This document shows, one piece after another, positions 2,278 to 38,783 of a stretch of DNA of 38,783 nucleotides. A program made the translations under genes and the position numbers. The stretch spans positions 1-38,783 of the forward strand of contig JAPUEE010000022.1 of NCBI GenBank assembly GCA_027492735.1, given 5' to 3'. The stretch is from Candidatus Saccharimonadota bacterium (GTDB lineage Bacteria > Patescibacteriota > Saccharimonadia > Saccharimonadales > Saccharimonadaceae). The notes beneath the pieces were generated by a model. That model searched no databases, was not told where the DNA came from, and worked only from the letters and a program-made list of their open reading frames with translations. Position 1 is the first letter of the stretch, and the number at the start of each line of letters is the position of its first letter.

Positions 2278-2288
2278 GGGGGGGGGGG
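2278..2288. repeat. Homopolymer G11 tract
   Basis: Eleven consecutive G residues lie directly downstream of the glycoside-hydrolase-like gene. They are followed by AAG and then TATGATATAT, which matches 8 of 10 bases of the word following the second G tract (TATGGTACAT at 33871). No convincing -35 box stands upstream here, so if this was once the same kind of promoter it looks damaged. A tract of this length is expected to slip during replication. Confidence 0.85.
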
Positions 2289-2292
2289 AAGT

Positions 2293-2346
2293 ATGATATA
2301 TGCGGGACAGGGGCGGGGCTTTACAATCGTCGAACTCCTGTCTTAA
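2293..2346 (+). pseudogene. Orphan type IV prepilin leader (truncated pilin gene fragment)
   Basis: An ATG-initiated 17-codon frame encodes MIYAGQGRGFTIVELLS and then a UAA stop. RG|FTIVELL is a textbook class III (prepilin) signal: Gly at -1, Phe at +1, Glu at +5. Where the hydrophobic pilin helix should continue, the frame stops, and no other frame downstream resumes it. The purine run ending in GGGGAAGT before the ATG could serve as a Shine-Dalgarno region. The simplest reading is the broken 5' end of a pilin gene, left by deletion or recombination. A functional 17-residue peptide is possible but less likely. Confidence 0.5.
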
Positions 2347-27797: not shown

Positions 27798-27831
27798 GCG
27801 CATTGCTTATTTTTCAGCAAGCGCGTACAAT
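27798..27831 (+). promoter_or_regulatory. arc operon promoter with overlapping inverted repeat
   Basis: TTGCTT (27803-27808), a 17-bp spacer and TACAAT (27826-27831). An inverted repeat, GCGC-A-TTGCT against AGCAA-GCGC (27798-27824), covers the -35 box and most of the spacer; it could be an operator or, less likely, the end of the upstream transcript. Confidence 0.55.
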
Positions 27832-27877
27832 AGGGTTGTTGCTTGAGCAAAAAATTTATCCAGAGAGGGAGGGCGCT

Positions 27878-29137
27878 ATGGATGATCAAACAATGAATAA
27901 TCAATCTCCAATTAGGGTATATAGCGAGATTGGTGCGTTAAAAACGGTGATCTTGCACCGGCCGGGAGCGGAATTGGAGAACTTGACTCCAGACACTCTA
28001 ACGGAGCTTTTATTTGATGATATTCCTTACCTGAAAGTAGCTCAGGAGGAGCACGATGCATTTGCGAATCTATTACGCAATCGTGGTGTCGATGTTCTAT
28101 ACTATGATCAGCTGGCTGCCGGTGCTTTATCTGATCAGGGAGTAAAAGAAGAGTTTGTTCGTGATATGCTCCATAGCTCAAAACAATCTGATAGACGAAT
28201 AACAGATGCTCTGCGAAATTATCTGTTATCTATGGATACGCAGCAGATGGTTTCTAAGATTATGGCTGGCGTGCGCAAGGATGAGGTTAAAATCGCTACC
28301 GAGAACTCAACTTCATTAGAAGAGATGGTATCAGCGGATAGTGATTATCCGTTTTATCTCAATCCAATGCCTAATTTGTATTTTTCTCGTGACTATGCTG
28401 CGTCAATTGGGAATGGTATGACTGTTAACCACATGCACTATCCAGCTAGGCGTCGCGAGAGTTTATTCATGAAATATATCCTGCGTCATAATCCACGGTT
28501 CTCGAGTGCCAATGTACCTGTCTGGTACGATCGTGACAATCGTTGGTCTGTCGAAGGTGGTGACGAGCAGGTCTGGAGCAATGAAACATTTGCTATCGGT
28601 CTGAGCCAGCGTACTGAGCCGGGGGCGGTAGAAAAAATAGCCACGAGGCTCCTAGCAGATGGTGGATTCAAACGCGTTGTTGCTCTAGAGATTCCAAAAT
28701 CACATGCTCTGATGCACCTTGACACAGTTCTCACTATGGTTGATTACAATAAATTCACCGTCTTTCCCGGTATTATGGATCGACTAGGCAAGATGAATAT
28801 CTTTATATTGACGCGCCGCGATGACGGATCGTTACATGTTGAGCATCGTGAGAATTTGCTCGATGTTATGCGTGAAGTTCTAGGTCGTAATGATATCGAT
28901 TTACTGCCTACTGGTGATCATGACAAAATTGCTAGTGAGCGAGAGCAGTGGAACGACGGCAGCAATACACTAGCTATTGCACCTGGTGTAGTAGTTACCT
29001 ATGATCGCAACTATGTCTCTAATAATCTGATGCGCCAACACGGACTAGAAGTACTCGAAATACCTGGTGCAGAGCTTGGTCGAGGACGTGGTGGTCCACG
29101 TTGTATGAGCATGCCACTATGGCGGGAGGATATATAA
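27878..29137 (+). CDS. arcA: Arginine deiminase
   Basis: ArcA converts arginine to citrulline and ammonia, the first step of the arginine deiminase pathway. The 419-residue protein has the guanidino-modifying fold: GALKTVILHRPG, PNLYFSRDYAASIGNG, VEGGDEQVW, HLDTVLTMVD (His and Asp of the active site) and the nucleophile Cys409 in GGPRCMSMPLWRED. The start is the ATG at 27878 with GGGAGGG before it, about 40 nt into the transcript. The stop overlaps the arcB start (TAATG). Confidence 0.97.
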   Translation: MDDQTMNNQSPIRVYSEIGALKTVILHRPGAELENLTPDTLTELLFDDIPYLKVAQEEHDAFANLLRNRGVDVLYYDQLAAGALSDQGVKEEFVRDMLHSSKQSDRRITDALRNYLLSMDTQQMVSKIMAGVRKDEVKIATENSTSLEEMVSADSDYPFYLNPMPNLYFSRDYAASIGNGMTVNHMHYPARRRESLFMKYILRHNPRFSSANVPVWYDRDNRWSVEGGDEQVWSNETFAIGLSQRTEPGAVEKIATRLLADGGFKRVVALEIPKSHALMHLDTVLTMVDYNKFTVFPGIMDRLGKMNIFILTRRDDGSLHVEHRENLLDVMREVLGRNDIDLLPTGDHDKIASEREQWNDGSNTLAIAPGVVVTYDRNYVSNNLMRQHGLEVLEIPGAELGRGRGGPRCMSMPLWREDI

Positions 29138-30126
29138 TGGCACTTAATTTACGGGGTCGTTCACTACTAACCCTAGAAGATTACAGCAAAGAAGAAATTG
29201 AATTATTGCTGGCAACCGCTAGAGAATACAAACAGATGAAACAGGCTGGTATTCCGCATGCGACACTAAATGGCAAGTCAATTGCATTGCTGTTTGAAAA
29301 GACGTCTACGCGTACACGGTGTGCTTTTGAAGTTGCAGCGACTGATCTAGGTATTCACCCGACATATTTGGGGCAGGGTGATACGCAGTTTGGCAAAAAG
29401 GAATCCACAGAGGATACAGCAAAAGTTTTGGGCCGTATGTTTGATGGTATAGAGTTCCGAGGATATGCCCATCAAACGGTAGTAGATCTGGCTACACATA
29501 GCGGGGTGCCGGTCTGGAATGGGTTGACTGACTTCTTTCATCCGACCCAGGTATTAGCCGATTTCTTTACTATCGAGGAGTCTGTTAAGCCTCTCCATAA
29601 AACGAAAATGGTGTACGTAGGTGATGGTCGAAATAATACAGCAAATAGTCTGATGATTGGTGCGAGCAAGGTTGGTATGAATTTTACCATTGCTAGCCCA
29701 GTCGAATTGCGTCCTAGCGAAGATCTGATTAACGAAGCTGAGAGATTTGCTGCAGAATCTAGCGCCAGTATTAATTTTAGTGATGATCTATTATCGGCTG
29801 TCGAAGGTGCAGATGTGATCTATACAGATGTTTGGGTCTCAATGGGTGAGGAGGACAAGTTTGCTGAACGCATTGAATTGCTCCGAAACTATCAGGTAAA
29901 CCAGAGGGTCATAGAAGCTACCCATAATCCAGATGTCAAGTTTTTACACTGTTTACCGGCATTTCATGATACCAATACAGTTATTGGTGCTGATATTCAC
30001 GACAAATTTGGTTTAGACTCTATGGAGGTCAGTGACGAGGTGTTTCGTGGTCCGCACTCTCTAGTGTTCGACCTATCTGAAAATCGAATGCATACCATTA
30101 AAGCTCTCATCGCTTTAACGTTATAA
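29137..30126 (+). CDS. arcB: Ornithine carbamoyltransferase (catabolic)
   Basis: Second step: citrulline plus phosphate gives ornithine and carbamoyl phosphate. The 329-residue protein carries EKTSTRTRCAFEVA (carbamoyl phosphate site), HPTQVLADF, VYVGDGRNN and FLHCLPAFHD (ornithine site). Its position between arcA and the transporter supports the catabolic direction. GGGAGGA stands 6 nt before the ATG; a longer frame inside arcA is rejected. Confidence 0.96.
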   Translation: MALNLRGRSLLTLEDYSKEEIELLLATAREYKQMKQAGIPHATLNGKSIALLFEKTSTRTRCAFEVAATDLGIHPTYLGQGDTQFGKKESTEDTAKVLGRMFDGIEFRGYAHQTVVDLATHSGVPVWNGLTDFFHPTQVLADFFTIEESVKPLHKTKMVYVGDGRNNTANSLMIGASKVGMNFTIASPVELRPSEDLINEAERFAAESSASINFSDDLLSAVEGADVIYTDVWVSMGEEDKFAERIELLRNYQVNQRVIEATHNPDVKFLHCLPAFHDTNTVIGADIHDKFGLDSMEVSDEVFRGPHSLVFDLSENRMHTIKALIALTL

Positions 30127-30215
30127 CAGTAACCAAAAGGAGAGTATAGCAAAGCAGAGTTGTAGAGATAAAAAAAGTGATAACAACATAATTGATATAT
30201 TTTAAAGGAGAGGTT

Positions 30216-31820
30216 ATGGAAAAAACTGATTCGGTAGAGGGCAAAAAAGCGCTCAAACGCAAACGAAAGTTTTTTAGTCGTCTGCGTTTTCCATCGGCCC
30301 TAACGCTATTATTTATAATTATAGCGGTGATGGCAGCGTTGACGTGGATCATTCCGTCGGGACAATACAAAGTTACTGATGGCGAAGATGCCACCCCGAT
30401 TGCTGGCACGTATCAACAAGTCGACAAGTCGACTACAACGGTGGATGCGGAAACTGGTGAGAAAACTACCACAGATGTTAGGCAGGGATTATGGGAGGTG
30501 TTACAGGCACCTATCAAAGGGTTCTTGGATGCCAGTGACGTGGTAATTTTTGTGTTAGTTATCGGTGGATTCCTGGCAGTCCAGGCAAAAACTGGGGCGC
30601 TCGATGCCGGTCTAGGAAAGGTTATTCGCAAACTACGTGGCAAGGAAAAGATGATTATTCCTATCCTGATGACACTGTTTGCGATTGGTGGTACTACCTA
30701 CGGTATGCAAGAAGAAACTATTGCATTTTATCCATTGATTATACCTCTGGTTGTAGCGGCTGGCTATAACGGCATGACAGCGGTTATGGTGATCGTTTTT
30801 GGCTCAATTATTGGTGTTATCGGCTCTACGGTAAATCCTTTCTCTACAGGGATAGCGAGTGGATTTGCTGGCGTTTCAATCGGTGATGGTATCGTTGAGC
30901 GACTCATCATACTGGTGCTATCTCTAGTGGCCGGCATATGGTTTACGATGCATTATGCTGCAAAGGTCAAGCGTTGCAACGAAGAGCTAGCGGTGATGTG
31001 CGAAGTCCACGGCACTCATCAGAGCAAAGAATGCAAAGAATACCTAGCTGACCGTGCGGCAACCGAAGCAGTTCGTTCTCCGCAATACAATAAAAAGCGC
31101 AAACTAGTAGTATGGGTGTTTGGGTTGACGTTCTTTGTTATGATCTTGACGGTTATCCCATGGGCTAGTAAATTTAACATCACTATATTTGAAGATGCAG
31201 TTAAATGGCTCTATACCGTACCGTTTGTTGGTCCATTCTTGGGTCACATCATTCCGTTTGGAGACTGGTGGTTTGGTGAAATCGCTTCGCTATTCCTATT
31301 GTCATCTATTATCATCGCGGTTATTTACCGAATGAAAGAGAGCGATTTTACGGAAACGTTCGTCAACGGTGCAAAAGATCTACTAGGGGTGGCGCTCATC
31401 ATTGCTGTATCTCGTGGTATATCGGTCATCATGAGTGACGGTATGATTGCAGATACGATAATTCACTGGGGAGAGGCTGGGCTCAGTGGTCTTCAAAGTT
31501 CTGTGTTTGGTGCTCTGGCCTATGTCTTTTATCTGCCTTTGTCAGTTTTGATACCATCAACGTCAGGTCTGGCAACAGTTACGATGCCGATATTGGCTCC
31601 ACTGGCAGATTTTGCGAACATCGATCGTAGTTTGATGGTAACAGCTTTCCAGACCTCATCAGGCCTAATCAATATGATTGCGCCAACAGTTGGTGCCTTG
31701 ATGGGCGGATTGGCTCTCGCGAAGGTGTCGTACGGTAAATATCTACGTGTGTCGTGGCCACTTTTCGCTATACTGGCCGTTATCAGTATAGCTGTTATAG
31801 CAGTTGCGGCAGCTCTCTAA
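30216..31820 (+). CDS. arcD: YfcC-family transporter, probable arginine/ornithine exchanger
   Basis: A 534-residue membrane protein with about 12 hydrophobic segments and a basic N terminus (KKALKRKRKFFSRLRFPSALTLLFIII). It resembles the YfcC/DcuC-type carriers that replace classical ArcD in many arc operons. Conserved-looking glycine and proline stretches are TYGMQEETIAFYPL, GSTVNPFSTGIASGFAG and PSTSGLATVTMPILAPLADF. Its place between arcB and arcC suggests it swaps arginine for ornithine, but the substrate is inferred from context. AAAGGAGAGG precedes the ATG. The 90 nt before it are purine-rich and hold no clear terminator. Confidence 0.85.
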   Translation: MEKTDSVEGKKALKRKRKFFSRLRFPSALTLLFIIIAVMAALTWIIPSGQYKVTDGEDATPIAGTYQQVDKSTTTVDAETGEKTTTDVRQGLWEVLQAPIKGFLDASDVVIFVLVIGGFLAVQAKTGALDAGLGKVIRKLRGKEKMIIPILMTLFAIGGTTYGMQEETIAFYPLIIPLVVAAGYNGMTAVMVIVFGSIIGVIGSTVNPFSTGIASGFAGVSIGDGIVERLIILVLSLVAGIWFTMHYAAKVKRCNEELAVMCEVHGTHQSKECKEYLADRAATEAVRSPQYNKKRKLVVWVFGLTFFVMILTVIPWASKFNITIFEDAVKWLYTVPFVGPFLGHIIPFGDWWFGEIASLFLLSSIIIAVIYRMKESDFTETFVNGAKDLLGVALIIAVSRGISVIMSDGMIADTIIHWGEAGLSGLQSSVFGALAYVFYLPLSVLIPSTSGLATVTMPILAPLADFANIDRSLMVTAFQTSSGLINMIAPTVGALMGGLALAKVSYGKYLRVSWPLFAILAVISIAVIAVAAAL

Positions 31821-31842
31821 TATTAGTGAAAGGGTAAAAGTC

Positions 31843-32784
31843 ATGAAGCAAAGGATTGTCATAGCACTGGGCGGAAATGCTCTGCAGATTAACGGCGCTG
31901 CGACAGCAGATGAACAAAAGGCAGTAGCCTCGTTCACTGCGCAAAAAATCGTTGATCTCGTAGAGGACGGCCATGATCTCATTATTGGTCATGGTAATGG
32001 GCCGCAGGTGGGGGCAATCCTACTTCATGAAGAGGCCGGATCTACAAAAGAAGCACCTTCTATGCCACTCGAAACCGATGGCGCTATGAGTCAGGGGCAG
32101 ATTGGCTACTGGCTACAGCAAGCTATCGGCGATGAACTGAGGTCTCGTCATATCGATAAAGATGTGGCTACAGTTATCACTCAGACAGTTGTTTCTAGCG
32201 ATGATCCGGCATTCGAGAGTCCTTCCAAACCCATCGGACCTTTTTATGATGAATCGACAGCTCGAGAGCTTGCTAGTACGAGAGGTTGGACAGTCAAAGA
32301 AGATGCTGGTCGTGGTTGGCGGCGCGTTGTACCATCGCCGAGACCGGCAGATATCGTTGAGAGACGAGTTATCAAAGGGCTTGCCGACAGAGGTATACTT
32401 GTCGTAGCGGCGGGTGGTGGCGGAGTGCCAGTACTCAATAAAAACGGTGATTTGACAGGGGTAGATGGAGTTATCGATAAAGACTTTGCTGCCTCTTTGC
32501 TAGGTCAAATTGTAGAGGCCTCAGTCTTGTTGATACTAACAGCGGTTGATGCGGTGACTATTGGATATAAGACTGATCACGAAACAGCGCTGACGGATGT
32601 CGGTGTCTCTGAGCTAAAACGGTATGCTGAGGCTGGCGAATTTGCCCCAGGATCGATGTTGCCAAAAGTGCAAGCGGCAGTTGAATTTGTCGAGTATCGC
32701 CCTGAAAATGTTGCAATAATAACATCAATCGAACAGGCGAGGGCAGCGCTAGAGGGCAAAGCGGGAACACGTATACATAGATAA
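31843..32784 (+). CDS. arcC: Carbamate kinase
   Basis: The last step: carbamoyl phosphate plus ADP gives ATP, CO2 and ammonia, the energy yield of the pathway. The 313-residue protein has RIVIALGGNALQ, LIIGHGNGPQVG, GAMSQGQIGYWLQQA, VVAAGGGGVPV, GVIDKDFAA and FAPGSMLPKVQAA in family order. The start is the ATG at 31843, 22 nt after arcD, with AAAGGG before it. It closes the arcABDC operon. Confidence 0.97.
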   Translation: MKQRIVIALGGNALQINGAATADEQKAVASFTAQKIVDLVEDGHDLIIGHGNGPQVGAILLHEEAGSTKEAPSMPLETDGAMSQGQIGYWLQQAIGDELRSRHIDKDVATVITQTVVSSDDPAFESPSKPIGPFYDESTARELASTRGWTVKEDAGRGWRRVVPSPRPADIVERRVIKGLADRGILVVAAGGGGVPVLNKNGDLTGVDGVIDKDFAASLLGQIVEASVLLILTAVDAVTIGYKTDHETALTDVGVSELKRYAEAGEFAPGSMLPKVQAAVEFVEYRPENVAIITSIEQARAALEGKAGTRIHR

Positions 32785-33016: not shown

Positions 33017-33093
33017 GGGCGATTAGCTCAGCTGGTTAGAGCGCGTCACTGATAATGACGAGGTCCCAGGTTCAAGTCCTGGATCGCCCACCA
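33017..33093 (+). tRNA. tRNA-Ile (anticodon GAT)
   Basis: A 77-nt cloverleaf: acceptor GGGCGAT/ATCGCCC, D arm GCTC/GAGC, anticodon stem CGTCA/TGACG around CTGATAA (anticodon GAT), T loop GTTCAAGT, discriminator A, CCA encoded. TACAAT (33003-33008) just upstream may be a -10 box. The next gene's ATG lies 12 nt after CCA. Confidence 0.96.
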
Positions 33094-33105
33094 GAAATTA
33101 TTTTT

Positions 33106-33828
33106 ATGAAGAAATTTGCAATTTTTGATATAGACGGCACCCTTTATAGATGGCAACTATACCATGAATTAGTCGAATATTTGGCGTTAGACGGTAAATT
33201 GCCGGCTAGTGCGGCAACTGAACTGGGCGACGCTTGGAATAGCTGGCGTGGCGGAGAGATATCTTTTGATAATTACGAAAAAGTCGTTATCGGGACGATG
33301 GTCGAGAATCTGCCGAAAATATCAGTTGATGATTTTGAGACGGCTTGTAATGTGGTGGTCGAAAACAGTGCGCACAAAACATATTATTATACGAGGACGT
33401 TATTAAAGGACTTGAAGTCGCGAGGGTATTGCATCATCGCTATTACCGGGTCTCAACAGGAATTGATAGATCGATTCGGTAAAGTGTACGGCTTTGATCT
33501 AGTGGTAGGATCAAAATACGAACGCCAAGGTAATACATTTACTGGCAAGACCGAGGTTATGACTATAGGGCGCAAACTGGATATATTGAAACAACTCGTT
33601 AACGAACACGAGCTGTCCTGGACTGACAGCTATGCTATAGGTGACAGTGATGGTGATGCCAGCTTGCTCGAAGTTGTCGATAATCCGATCGCCTTTAACC
33701 CGTCAGAGGGCCTGTTTGAGCAAGCCAGGGTAGAAGGCTGGCCTATTGTCGTAGAGCGCAAGAATATAGCGTATGTTTTCGGAGAAAAACATCAGGATTT
33801 AGTTCTAAAAGAAACAGTTACTTACTGA
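33106..33828 (+). CDS. HAD-superfamily IB phosphatase (SerB-like)
   Basis: A 240-residue cytoplasmic phosphatase. FDIDGTLYRW (residues 6-15) is HAD motif I, AITGSQQELIDRFG is motif II, the Lys region lies near TVEVMTIGRK, and AIGDSDGDASLLEVVDNPIAFNPS is motif IV, with the spacing of the subfamily IB group to which phosphoserine phosphatase belongs. The substrate is unknown. There is no Shine-Dalgarno sequence, and the ATG stands 12 nt downstream of the tRNA-Ile CCA, so the mRNA 5' end may come from tRNA 3' processing. A longer frame reading through the tRNA is rejected. Confidence 0.85.
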   Translation: MKKFAIFDIDGTLYRWQLYHELVEYLALDGKLPASAATELGDAWNSWRGGEISFDNYEKVVIGTMVENLPKISVDDFETACNVVVENSAHKTYYYTRTLLKDLKSRGYCIIAITGSQQELIDRFGKVYGFDLVVGSKYERQGNTFTGKTEVMTIGRKLDILKQLVNEHELSWTDSYAIGDSDGDASLLEVVDNPIAFNPSEGLFEQARVEGWPIVVERKNIAYVFGEKHQDLVLKETVTY

Positions 33829-33850: not shown

Positions 33851-33881
33851 TTGACACCATGGGGGGGGGGTATGGTACATT
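33851..33881 (+). promoter_or_regulatory. Promoter with G10 tract in the spacer (candidate phase-variable promoter)
   Basis: A consensus TTGACA (33851-33856) and a TGG-extended TACATT (33876-33881) enclose CCAT, exactly ten G (33861-33870) and TATGG. With ten G the spacer is 19 bp; with eight G it would be the optimal 17. A perfect inverted repeat AGCTATAA-CAAT-TTATAGCT (33885-33904) covers the predicted start of transcription. AAGGAGG lies 12 nt before the ATG of the collagen-like gene. Confidence 0.6.
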
Positions 33882-33939
33882 ATAAGCTATAACAATTTAT
33901 AGCTCTCTAGGTAGCAGAGCAAGGAGGCGTATAACACCT

Positions 33940-34641
33940 ATGACCAGACTTCCCACACCGGGTTCCGATGAAGGCCAATGGGGTCAAATACTGAACGATT
34001 ACCTCTCTGCTGTTCACAAGACTGATGGTACGCTAAAAGACAGTATTATCACTGCAAACAATCTTGCCCCTAATGCTATTACTACAAGCACTATTCAACC
34101 CGCTACTATCACTGAAGACAAACTCGATTCCACTGTACAATCTAAACTAAACTCAGGCGGTGGCACACCGGGAGCCACTGGCCCAACTGGTCTTCAAGGA
34201 CTAACCGGTGCTACCGGGCCATCCGGTACGCCAGGTGTCGCTGGAGCTACAGGTGCTTCTGGTACACCTGGATCTAATGGCAACCCAGGTGCTACTGGTG
34301 CTACTGGCCCGATAGGCGCCACAGGACCAGCTGGAGTACCTGGCGCTACGACTATTGAGGGTATAGACGGACTACGGGACGAACTGGATGGCAAGGCAGC
34401 CGTGTCACACGTTCACAGTGCAGTAGAGATCACGAGCGGTACCTTTGGGCTTGAGCGTGCTGTACCCGGTACTACCTTTGATGTTATCTATGATGGTACT
34501 GATTGGCGATATGCAGGTAGCGTTGTCTCGGCACGACCTACAGCCCGCACCGATCTGATTATGCAATGTGTCAATCCCGTAGACGCTACGGTGCCGGCTT
34601 GGGCAATCACCGGTGACAGGCTGCTAAGGATAGATACCTAG
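33940..34641 (+). CDS. Collagen-like fibre protein with phage-tail-type N terminus
   Basis: A 233-residue protein. Residues 1-72 start [20 protein letters not shown] and contain [22 protein letters not shown], phrases typical of tail-fibre-like proteins in actinobacteria and their phages. About 21 Gly-X-Y triplets follow (residues 74-138), then a C-terminal domain with [24 protein letters not shown]. No signal peptide, membrane helix or anchor motif is present, which makes Sec export and sortase display unlikely. It is followed 9 nt later by the beta-helix gene. A fibre on a tail-like or other export device is inferred. Expression is likely to vary through the G10 promoter upstream. Confidence 0.75.
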
Positions 34642-34650
34642 GGCTAAGCC

Positions 34651-36264
34651 ATGGCGCGGTATAGCTATACATTCGAAAACGGTACCAATGGGCAACCGTA
34701 CGTCATCGATACTCCCACGACCGGTAGTATTGTCGCTGATACGGCTCATGCCGGCCACGGCACGACGTCGCTACGCATGGACTATGGTGGCAGCGGGCAG
34801 TATGTGCAAGTCAATCTGCCTGCCGCTGCTACGGACGTGGCGGTACGCTACTATATGTATGTTGATGAACTAAGTGGTAATGACTCGTCAGAGCTGCGTG
34901 TTGGCAACAGCACTACTGCTAATGACAACGGCACCACTGCTGTGCGTATAACGCGAAACTCGGCCGGAAGGCTACGAGTGTTCAGTAACGGCGTGACTTC
35001 GGTATTTACGGCAACGAACACGTTAGAAGTGAATACATGGTATCGCATCGAGGCCCGCGTCCAGTGCGATACTGGAGGTAATGCCAGTATAAACGGTGCC
35101 TACTATGTAGGTGAATCCACTACGCCAGTGCAGACATTTAGCACGTCTACGGCTACCACTACGGCCGATATCGTCTGCGTGCGTATGGGTAAGATCAATA
35201 ACCCGGTGATCAGCCCGAACACGGGACACGCGTGGTTTGATAGCTTGGCGATAGACGATGCCCCGACGGGCTTGATTGGACCTTACAGCGAGGGCGAAGA
35301 ACCACCGGAGCCTGTACATCCATTGTGGCACATTGCCAATCCGGTGGGGCCGGTCTTGCAGCCGATCAACACTGGCACTATCATTGGCGTTGATCCTGGA
35401 GATCCTGGTGAGCCACCGGTTGATCCTGGAGACTGGGCCGGTGTATTTGCCTCTCGTGACATCAATGGCGACATCAGAGATTGGTACGAGGTCAATACCG
35501 GACACGATCCAAATCTTAGCTATCAAGACGTTGCCGGCAACCTAGCCATCACTGACGCCTGGCTGGCGAGTAACAATGGCAACGGCCGTGTCTGGATGGA
35601 CGGTGGTCGCTGGCACGTCGAGCGCTACCGCACGACCGGTACCATTACGGTTAATGCTAATGACGTTACGATCATTAACTGTCACGTCAACAGCACTGGT
35701 GCGCTATACGCTATGCGCTCGCAAACCAATTGTACCGGACTAGTAGTCGAGCATTGTACTTTCCAAGGTAATTATGCCAGCTCAAACGGTGCGACAATCA
35801 ATTTCCCAGCAGCAACCGAACCGGATCAGATTATCTTCCGTTACACTGAATTCACTGGTTGGCGCGCCGGTATCTATTGTTTTGGCGGGGTGCGGGCTGA
35901 ATACTGCTGGAGCCATGATCTTATGTTTACCGAAACCTCACACAATACTGGTGCATCTATCCGTAGCCGCAATGTCACACTGTATCGCTGCCTGATTAGC
36001 GATGGTAATTCAGCTGCTATTAGCTGCTACGCCGAAAATACTCCGTACACTGGTATTCTCATTCAGGAAAACATCTTACGCTTGCCAGAGCATGACACGG
36101 GAGCGGAGGTATTTATCGGCAAAGAGTATGCTATTCCTTTGCCGGGCGAGACCCGCCGCCTGATTGGCAACCTGTTTTATCGCGGCAACATCGGCGGCAC
36201 CACTGAGGGCTTCACCGAAGTATCCGGCAACATTGACATAAACGGCAATCCAGTAACGGTATAG
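34651..36264 (+). CDS. LamG-like plus right-handed beta-helix (tailspike-like) protein
   Basis: A 537-residue protein. Residues 1 to about 210 look like a concanavalin/LamG-type sandwich (YSYTFENGTNGQPY, TSLRMDYGGSGQYVQVNLP, WYRIEARVQCD, HAWFDSLAIDD). A Pro/Gly-rich linker (about 225-265, DPGDPGEPPVDPGD) leads to a right-handed parallel beta-helix (about 290-520) with repeated Asn/Cys turns (VTIINCHVNS, LVVEHCTFQGN, VTLYRCLISDGN, ILIQENILRL). Such helices are found in polysaccharide-cleaving tailspikes and pectate-lyase-like proteins, but no catalytic residues could be assigned. No signal peptide. It is the second gene of the cassette, in the place of the glycoside-hydrolase-like gene at 1243. 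Confidence 0.7.
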   Translation: MARYSYTFENGTNGQPYVIDTPTTGSIVADTAHAGHGTTSLRMDYGGSGQYVQVNLPAAATDVAVRYYMYVDELSGNDSSELRVGNSTTANDNGTTAVRITRNSAGRLRVFSNGVTSVFTATNTLEVNTWYRIEARVQCDTGGNASINGAYYVGESTTPVQTFSTSTATTTADIVCVRMGKINNPVISPNTGHAWFDSLAIDDAPTGLIGPYSEGEEPPEPVHPLWHIANPVGPVLQPINTGTIIGVDPGDPGEPPVDPGDWAGVFASRDINGDIRDWYEVNTGHDPNLSYQDVAGNLAITDAWLASNNGNGRVWMDGGRWHVERYRTTGTITVNANDVTIINCHVNSTGALYAMRSQTNCTGLVVEHCTFQGNYASSNGATINFPAATEPDQIIFRYTEFTGWRAGIYCFGGVRAEYCWSHDLMFTETSHNTGASIRSRNVTLYRCLISDGNSAAISCYAENTPYTGILIQENILRLPEHDTGAEVFIGKEYAIPLPGETRRLIGNLFYRGNIGGTTEGFTEVSGNIDINGNPVTV

Positions 36265-36324: not shown

Positions 36325-36353
36325 TTGACACGCTAGGATGTATAGTGTAAACT
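36325..36353 (+). promoter_or_regulatory. Second possible promoter upstream of the rRNA promoter
   Basis: TTGACA (36325-36330), a 17-bp spacer and TAAACT (36348-36353). The -35 is consensus, the -10 is weaker. It would add about 110 nt to the 23S precursor. Confidence 0.4.
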
Positions 36354-36744: not shown

Positions 36745-38783
36745 GCATAAAAAGGTACTCAAGGGCACAAAACGGATGCCTTGACATATACTACCGAAGA
36801 AGGACGTGGAAGACTGCGAAAAGTCTCGGGGAGCCGTCAACAGGCTTTGATCCGGGAATATCCGAATGGGGAAACCCGCCGCGGGTCATGCCGTGAGCAT
36901 CGTATGCTGAATTCATAGGCATAGCGAAAGGGAACCGTCTGAACTGAAACATCTTAGTAGGACGAGGAAAAGAGAGTAAATAACGATTCTGGGAGTAGTG
37001 GCGAGCGAAACCGGAAGAGCCCAAACCTTTTTGGTTCTGTCTTTATTTTTCATCCCGATACGTCGGGGTGACGAATAAAGACAGTACGGCTGACAGGCCA
37101 ATGCCAAGAGGGTGTTGTGAGTTTACATAATTTTAGAGTTAAGTGCTGTACTTTGTACAACATTTGGCTTTAAAACCGACAACTGTCATTGAGCGGATAA
37201 GGTAAGAAATCGGCGTGGTTAGCAGAACAAGTTGGAAAGCTTGGCCCAAGACTGTGATAGCCAGGTATGCGAAAACGACGCTGACCTTATATATGTATTC
37301 TCGAGTAGGACGGGGCACGAGAAACCCTGTTTGAATCTGGCAGGACCACCTGCCAAGGCTAAATATAGTATATGATCGATAGCGAACTAGTACGGTGACG
37401 GAAAGGTGAAAAGAACCCCGGGAGGGGAGTGAAATAGAACCTGAAATTTTGTGCCTACAAGGAGTCGGAGCCCCCTCGGGGGTGACGGCGTGCTTTTTGT
37501 AGAACGATCCAGCGAGTTAATTTTATGTGCAAGGTTAAGTTAAATAACGAAGCCATAGTGAAAGCGAGCCTGAATAGGGCGAATTAGTACATAGGATTAG
37601 ACCCGAAACCAGGTGACCTAACCATGAGCAGGCTGAAGCGACGGTAACACGTCGTGGAGGGCCGAACCAGGGTACGCTGCAAAGTGCTTGGATGACTTGT
37701 GGTTAGCGGTGAAATGCCAATCGAACTTGGAGATAGCTGGTTCTCCGCGAAATAGCTTTAGGGCTAGCGTCATGTGGTAGCAAACAGGGGTAGAGCTCTG
37801 TAAAGGACTGGGGGGAGCAATCCTACCCACCCTTAACAAACTACGAATACTGTTTGTGGAATCATGGCAGTCAGAACGTCGGTGCTAAGATCGGCGCTCG
37901 AAAGGGAAACAGCCCAGACCATCGTCTAAGGTCCCTAAATTAACACTAAGTGGTAAACAAGGTGAAATTTCTTAAACAGCTAGGATGTTGGCTTAGAAGC
38001 AGCCATTCATTTAAAGAGTGCGTAACAGCTCACTAGTCAAGAGATTTTGCGTGGAAGATGTAACGGGGCTAAGTGTTATACCGAAGACATGGATTTGTAA
38101 TTTATTACAAGTGGTAGCGGAGCGTTCCTATCGCGCAGAAGCGGTTCTGTGAGGAACCGTGGAGCATTAGGAAGTGAGAATGCTGGAATGAGTAACCATA
38201 AGTGGGGTGAGAATCCCCACGGCCGAAAGAGCAAGGATTCCTGGGCTACAGTAATTGTCCCAGGGTTAGTCGGGCCTAAGCCGAGGCGTATAGCGTAGGC
38301 GATGGACACCAGGTTAATATTCCTGGACCGGTTAAATTTTGTATGCTGTTCGCGGCGAGATAGGAGGAGCGGATTCATGGTTTTTATCCGTTCAACGCAC
38401 ACGGGAACGTGTGTGGAGTAAAAGTTAGCCCTCGGGCTGACGATTCTTCCGAAAGCGCTGACTAGAAAAGCAGGCATACGCGTGGATTTAGCCGCCCGTA
38501 CCGCAAACCAACACAGGTGCTCGAGTCGAGAAGACTAAGGCTTACGAGAGAACCTTTGCTAAGGAACTCGGCAATACAGCGACCGTAACTTCGGGATAAG
38601 GTCTGCCTCCGTACCATACGGATGAGCCGCGATTTCTGCAAAAACAAGACAATGTCAGGAAATTTGAAAAGATTTTCGATAAGTTCAGATGTCGCGAACT
38701 TCTCGTACGTATCGTACGGAGGCTGCAACAAAAGAGCCCACGGAACTGTTTATCAAAAACACAGGTCTCTGCTAACACGAAAG
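36745..38783 (+). rRNA. rrl: 23S rRNA (5' two thirds, runs off the window)
   Basis: Sequence blocks follow E. coli 23S in order: GGATGCC near the 5' end, CCGAATGGGGAAACCC, GAACTGAAACATCT, AAAGAACCCCGG, ATAGACCCGAAACC-type block, GGAGATAGCTGGTTCTC, CCAGACC, GATGTTGGCTTAGAAGCAGC, GGAAGATGTAACGGGGCT, AGGTTAATATTCCTG and finally ACTGTTTATCAAAAACACAG, near E. coli position 1780. The 5' end is estimated within a few bases. A GC-rich hairpin near 37040-37085 is longer than in E. coli. No intron or homing endonuclease is visible in the part covered. No 16S gene precedes it: a beta-helix gene does, so the rRNA genes are unlinked or rearranged. Confidence 0.97.

Follow-up and report, generated by a model that had tools for sequence, protein, structure and literature searches.

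The contig JAPUEE010000022.1 of the Candidatus Saccharimonadota bacterium assembly GCA_027492735.1 (38,783 nt, analysed at its full length and called the window here) carries a candidate sigma-70-type promoter with a run of ten G in its spacer. The promoter lies between a gene for a HAD-type hydrolase (33055–33828) and a two-gene fibre cassette. Its parts and the genes behind it are the following.

33851–33856, + strand: -35 box TTGACA, read from the sequence; of the genome's 15 poly-G promoters, 13 have TTGAC
33861–33870, + strand: tract of ten G (G10) within the spacer, where slippage is proposed, from the sequence and counts of G runs
33873–33881, + strand: putative extended -10 element TGGTACATT, with the -10 box TACATT at 33876–33881, from the sequence; homologous TATGGTATAAT in relatives
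33940–34641, + strand: fibre protein of 233 aa with an N-terminal domain, a collagen repeat and a C-terminal domain (Pfam Collagen, 1.2e-9)
34651–36264, + strand: second cassette gene, 537 aa, beginning 9 bp past the first gene, with only a weak SO2946-like C-terminal match

The tract is joined to TTGACA by CCAT and to TGGTACATT by TA, giving a -35/-10 spacer of 19 bp (33857–33875). A sequence-only reading of this DNA had described the two boxes, the ten G and the 19-bp spacing, and direct reading of the letters agrees with it throughout. It had also claimed that loss of two G would yield 17 bp. Here the bases before the tract (N) and those between the tract and the -10 box (offset) sum to 9 bp, so that G8 corresponds to 17 bp and G10 to 19 bp. 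A second candidate -10 box, TATGGT, adjoins the 3' end of the tract and would make the spacer 14; we favour TACATT because the related loci L071 and L110 have TATGGTATAAT at the equivalent position. Runs of at least eight G are far more numerous in the window than expected (7 overlapping matches vs 0.32), a number that none of 100 shuffles attained. The tract is intergenic, falling between the open reading frame at 33055–33828 and the ATG at 33940; since it lies outside any open reading frame, phase variation by frameshifting of a coding sequence was ruled out.

The same arrangement recurs throughout the genome (816,744 bases, 97.6% complete). Fifteen of its 21 tracts of at least nine G have a -35-like hexamer on one side and a TAnnnT box on the other. 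These 15 precede fibre genes with a common N-terminus or type IV prepilins (N_methyl scored above cut-off in the one prepilin tested) or, in two cases, lie at contig ends with the fibre-gene promoter. Conversely, nine of the ten fibre gene starts visible in the genome have a poly-G promoter; the tenth (C4:103861) has the tractless promoter TTGACC-18 bp-TACACT. We found no TTGAC promoter in this genome with just six to eight G followed by T, and all of its promoter tracts contain at least nine. The six remaining tracts fall within reading frames or antisense to them, or lie at position 2278 of the window.

To follow the pattern across the family, we searched for TTGACN{2,10}G8, leaving the -10 box out of the pattern and using the pattern read backwards as the control. 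Matches were obtained in 41 of 245 family genomes and 23 of 61 genera (241 overlapping matches), compared with nine of 245 genomes and 19 matches for the control. A scan of the phylum matched 28 of 380 genomes, mostly with single matches outside the family. In g2, a many-species genus of the same family, the matches are scattered, suggesting that better-studied members of the family may carry such promoters. Both boxes were present at 86 of 103 fetched tracts of eight or more G. In 53 or 54 of these 86 promoters, depending on scoring, TAnnnT directly adjoins the tract, where about 1.7 would be expected (p about 1e-67). Such numbers bear on one alternative, namely that chance, mutational bias or assembly artefact produced the pattern, poly-G being common without the mismatch-repair protein MutS and some tracts landing upstream of genes. 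The six tracts outside promoters and the lack of MutS, described below, would be in keeping with this. Given the near-empty backwards control, the adjoining of box and tract, and the nine of ten fibre genes, however, it is extremely unlikely, and for the family as a whole it is refuted statistically.

What these promoters conserve is the distance between the boxes. Over the 86 promoters, N ranges from 1 to 9 and offset from 0 to 10, and the two are anticorrelated (rho -0.66, p 7e-12, 0 of 20,000 permutations; with the window's own genome removed, rho -0.60). Because the two compensate, the -35/-10 distance is the preserved quantity and the position of the tract is free, a pattern to be expected if promoter function depends on that distance. 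This result argues against a quite unlikely explanation in which the tract serves co-regulated promoters as a fixed element, structural or for binding (a stiff G-rich spacer, a G-quadruplex or a regulator site), whose length matters little. Consistent with a fixed element, the members within this genome all share strand and composition and C tracts are much rarer: the C8 version of the pattern has 46 matches in 15 genomes, and none here. A fixed element does not sit well, however, with free N and offset under a kept total, nor with tract lengths of 7 to 17 and near-identical promoters that differ just in the number of G.

Tract-free promoters supply the reference for the preserved distance. 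Pairs of TTGAC and TAnnnT peak at 17 bp, with 52 pairs vs about 18 at each other distance; in this genome alone the corresponding counts are 20 vs about 6. A fixed 17-bp reference also lies close to the cassette, 5' of the 23S rRNA gene that begins at 36749, 3' of the two cassette genes.

36325–36353, + strand: promoter before the 23S rRNA gene, TTGACA-17 bp-TAAACT, read from the sequence

The spacers of the poly-G promoters spread over 15–21 bp: 12 promoters have 15 bp or fewer, 34 have 16–18 bp (6 of them 17 bp) and 40 have at least 19 bp. The optimum may move by one base where the spacer contains a pure G run.

The genes behind the promoters provide an independent placement of the -10 box. 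Nine of 11 prepilin genes have their start codon 6–8 nt past the -10 box, which is the usual distance from a -10 box to the transcription start. Given this coincidence, the prepilin mRNAs are probably leaderless, as judged from the spacing. The probably leaderless prepilin loci are L041, L045, L072, L113, L122, L128, L129 and L141. The genes behind the 86 promoters include 14 fibre genes, 11 prepilins, 34 genes whose products have an N-terminal hydrophobic segment, and 20 others. From these predicted products, surface proteins dominate the targets and are not the sole ones. The 20 others include serially arranged polar proteins in the genome G020 (genus g21), where poly-G promoters stand one after another before related polar, non-secreted-looking proteins (L242, L247, L252, L257, L262 and L269).

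Closely related promoters differ in their number of G. In the window's own genome, two promoters with nearly the same flanks, C5 and C17, carry G12 and G13, respectively, and the related C15 promoter carries G10. The metagenome-assembled genome (MAG) JAPUDS has three copies of a near-identical promoter, with G7, G10 and G10. As read from the assemblies, these paralogous promoters display divergence in tract length, not switching within a population. Domain V of MutS (MutS_V) was absent from this genome and from all 61 family genera sampled, in a search whose control detected the domain in 11 of 14 known genomes. Without MutS, slippage in homopolymers is expected to be frequent; the absence of MutS thus makes slippage plausible here. 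It was also considered that the tracts act as a slow rheostat, their lengths tuning promoter strength over evolutionary time without frequent switching within populations. This is quite unlikely, given that long pure tracts are unstable without mismatch repair and that every promoter tract in the genome has at least nine G. The many intermediate spacers (15–21) are in its favour, as are the graded effects known for promoter-spacer tracts (PMC2791445). As a separate observation, a short leader open reading frame about 90 nt 5' of fibre genes contains (GA)8-9 repeats (L174:1409, L180:1407 and L201:1406; JAPUDS and JAPUET, two other MAGs of Saccharibacteria), possibly a second repeat-based switch of the same gene family.

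Overall, the element at 33851–33881 is very probably a phase-variable sigma-70-type promoter driven by slippage, belonging to a set of about 15 in the genome. Slipped-strand mispairing during replication would add or remove G between the -35 and -10 boxes, and the changed distance would alter initiation at the two-gene fibre cassette. A tract of G8 would give the clade-preferred 17 bp; with the G10 of the assembly the spacer is 19 bp, for which a weak or silent promoter is predicted. Independent switching at about 15 promoters would then turn a clonal population into one with many fibre and pilin combinations. The sequence-only reading had claimed phase variation of a fibre cassette by slippage, and indirect evidence strongly supports it: the approximately 15 promoters, the 23 genera, the kept total spacer, the 17-bp optimum, the differing paralogues and the loss of MutS. 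We infer that slippage takes place in living populations and that the fibres are surface exposed and used in host attachment or in avoiding phages or predators.

Several points weigh against phase variation by slippage. The effect of tract length on transcription, together with the on/off assignments, is something we infer from promoter spacing. The length differences were seen between paralogues and not at one locus between strains; neither the all-against-all comparison of promoter flanks nor a DNA search of 41 relatives yielded a strain-level orthologue, and in the DNA search the relatives had little in common with the locus beyond a tRNA end. The length of a tract in a metagenome assembly is, moreover, a consensus. 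The distribution within the family is patchy, with 204 of 245 genomes lacking the G8 pattern, and some genomes (G072 and G028) also carry C8 tracts near TTGAC. Finally, in some genera the genes behind the promoters are not obviously those of surface proteins.

Switching by promoter homopolymers is known from porA, fetA and opc of Neisseria meningitidis (PMC2791445). In Treponema pallidum tp0126, a poly-G tract is found between -35 and -10, with best activity at a 17-nt spacer (PMC7864442, which cites earlier work). The same promoter arrangement is established experimentally in porA and tp0126 (PMC2791445, PMC7864442). As in porA and fetA, whose gene products are on the outer surface, the homopolymer here is positioned between the boxes and its length sets their spacing. 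In contrast to porA and fetA, the promoters here number about 15 in a single ultrasmall Saccharibacterium with a genome of 0.8 Mb; they precede fibre and prepilin genes and are known from sequence alone. The tp0126 tract resembles ours in its position, and its optimum of 17 nt equals the clade reference spacer; the phylum and genes are unrelated, and reporter evidence exists for tp0126. In opc, likewise a promoter homopolymer, length grades transcription of a surface protein; the poly-C of opc reaches the -35 region, whereas the poly-G here is clear of both boxes. A hypervariable 9-mer repeat gene in a Gracilibacterium (PMC6851277) is a further case of repeat-driven variation in a Patescibacterium, although that repeat lies in the coding region of one gene and the tracts described here lie in the promoter spacers of a regulon.

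A full-text literature search, covering neither subscription papers nor preprints, found no report of phase variation or slipped-strand mispairing in Saccharibacteria or Patescibacteria, in line with the sequence-only reading, which knew of no description for Saccharibacteria and presented the novelty as tentative. The class of mechanism is known, and the multi-gene regulon in Saccharibacteria appears to be new. Saccharibacteria depend on binding bacterial hosts. Type IV pili drive this host binding, and the paper describing these pili leaves phase variation unmentioned (PMC12206443). If stochastic switching occurs, a clonal population would contain different host-binding phenotypes side by side, with a bearing on host range, failed re-infections and variable knock-out phenotypes. 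We give an even chance to a broader proposal: that this family, in which MutS appears to be missing throughout, has evolved a combinatorial poly-G regulon, with up to about 15 or more promoters per sub-megabase genome and leaderless pilin transcripts included, which would randomise, from one cell to the next, the fibres and pili used in host contact, as bet-hedging for host range and for escape from phages or predators.

The products of the cassette were characterised by similarity and structure prediction. The N-terminal domain of the 233-aa fibre protein is common to its paralogues, and PHROG tail fibre families match the protein through its collagen part. A phage origin of the cassette was rejected, since the PHROG matches stem from the collagen repeat and the N-terminal domain has only five weak relatives on viral contigs. 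For the 537-aa protein, single-sequence structure prediction was uninformative (predicted local distance difference test score 32), and searches of solved structures gave no meaningful match. The assignment of surface-type fibre genes stands in part: a collagen-like fibre protein is encoded behind the promoter, and its location on the surface is no more than plausible, since the fibre proteins show no evident signal peptide. Gordonia, Mycolicibacterium, Microbacterium and a Solirubrobacteraceae MAG likewise carry the fibre N-terminal domain (L199, L206, L207, L221 and L224), a spread from which gene exchange between Saccharibacteria and Actinobacteria is possible.

Two further sequence features accompany these promoters.

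33885–33904, + strand: inverted repeat with perfect 8-bp arms, AGCTATAA-CAAT-TTATAGCT, spanning the predicted transcription start, read from the sequence
2278–2288, + strand: G11 tract 3' of the fibre open reading frame at 1243–2274 and 5' of a truncated prepilin frame; no good -35 box

The inverted repeat had been noted before and is present as described: its arms, AGCTATAA (33885–33892) and TTATAGCT (33897–33904), are 100% complementary around a 4-nt loop. It recurs in paralogous promoters, at G000:C11:6028 and, with one change, at C3:4229. A role as a transcript hairpin was rejected, as the predicted transcription start (about 33887–33889) falls within the left arm and the RNA fold from 33887 does not surpass that of shuffles (z -0.16). 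The repeat probably plays no part in switching. Behind the G11 tract (window 2278–2345), TATGAT is followed by a prepilin-like start, MIYAGQGRGFTIVELLS, and a stop after 17 codons; from this layout, the locus is possibly a decayed poly-G pilin member.

Upstream of the promoter, the listed start of the HAD open reading frame falls in a tRNA-Ile gene (33017–33093), so its true start lies further downstream. Beyond it, window positions 27803–32784 hold an arginine deiminase cluster that encodes arginine deiminase, ornithine carbamoyltransferase, a DcuC-type carrier and an amino acid kinase.
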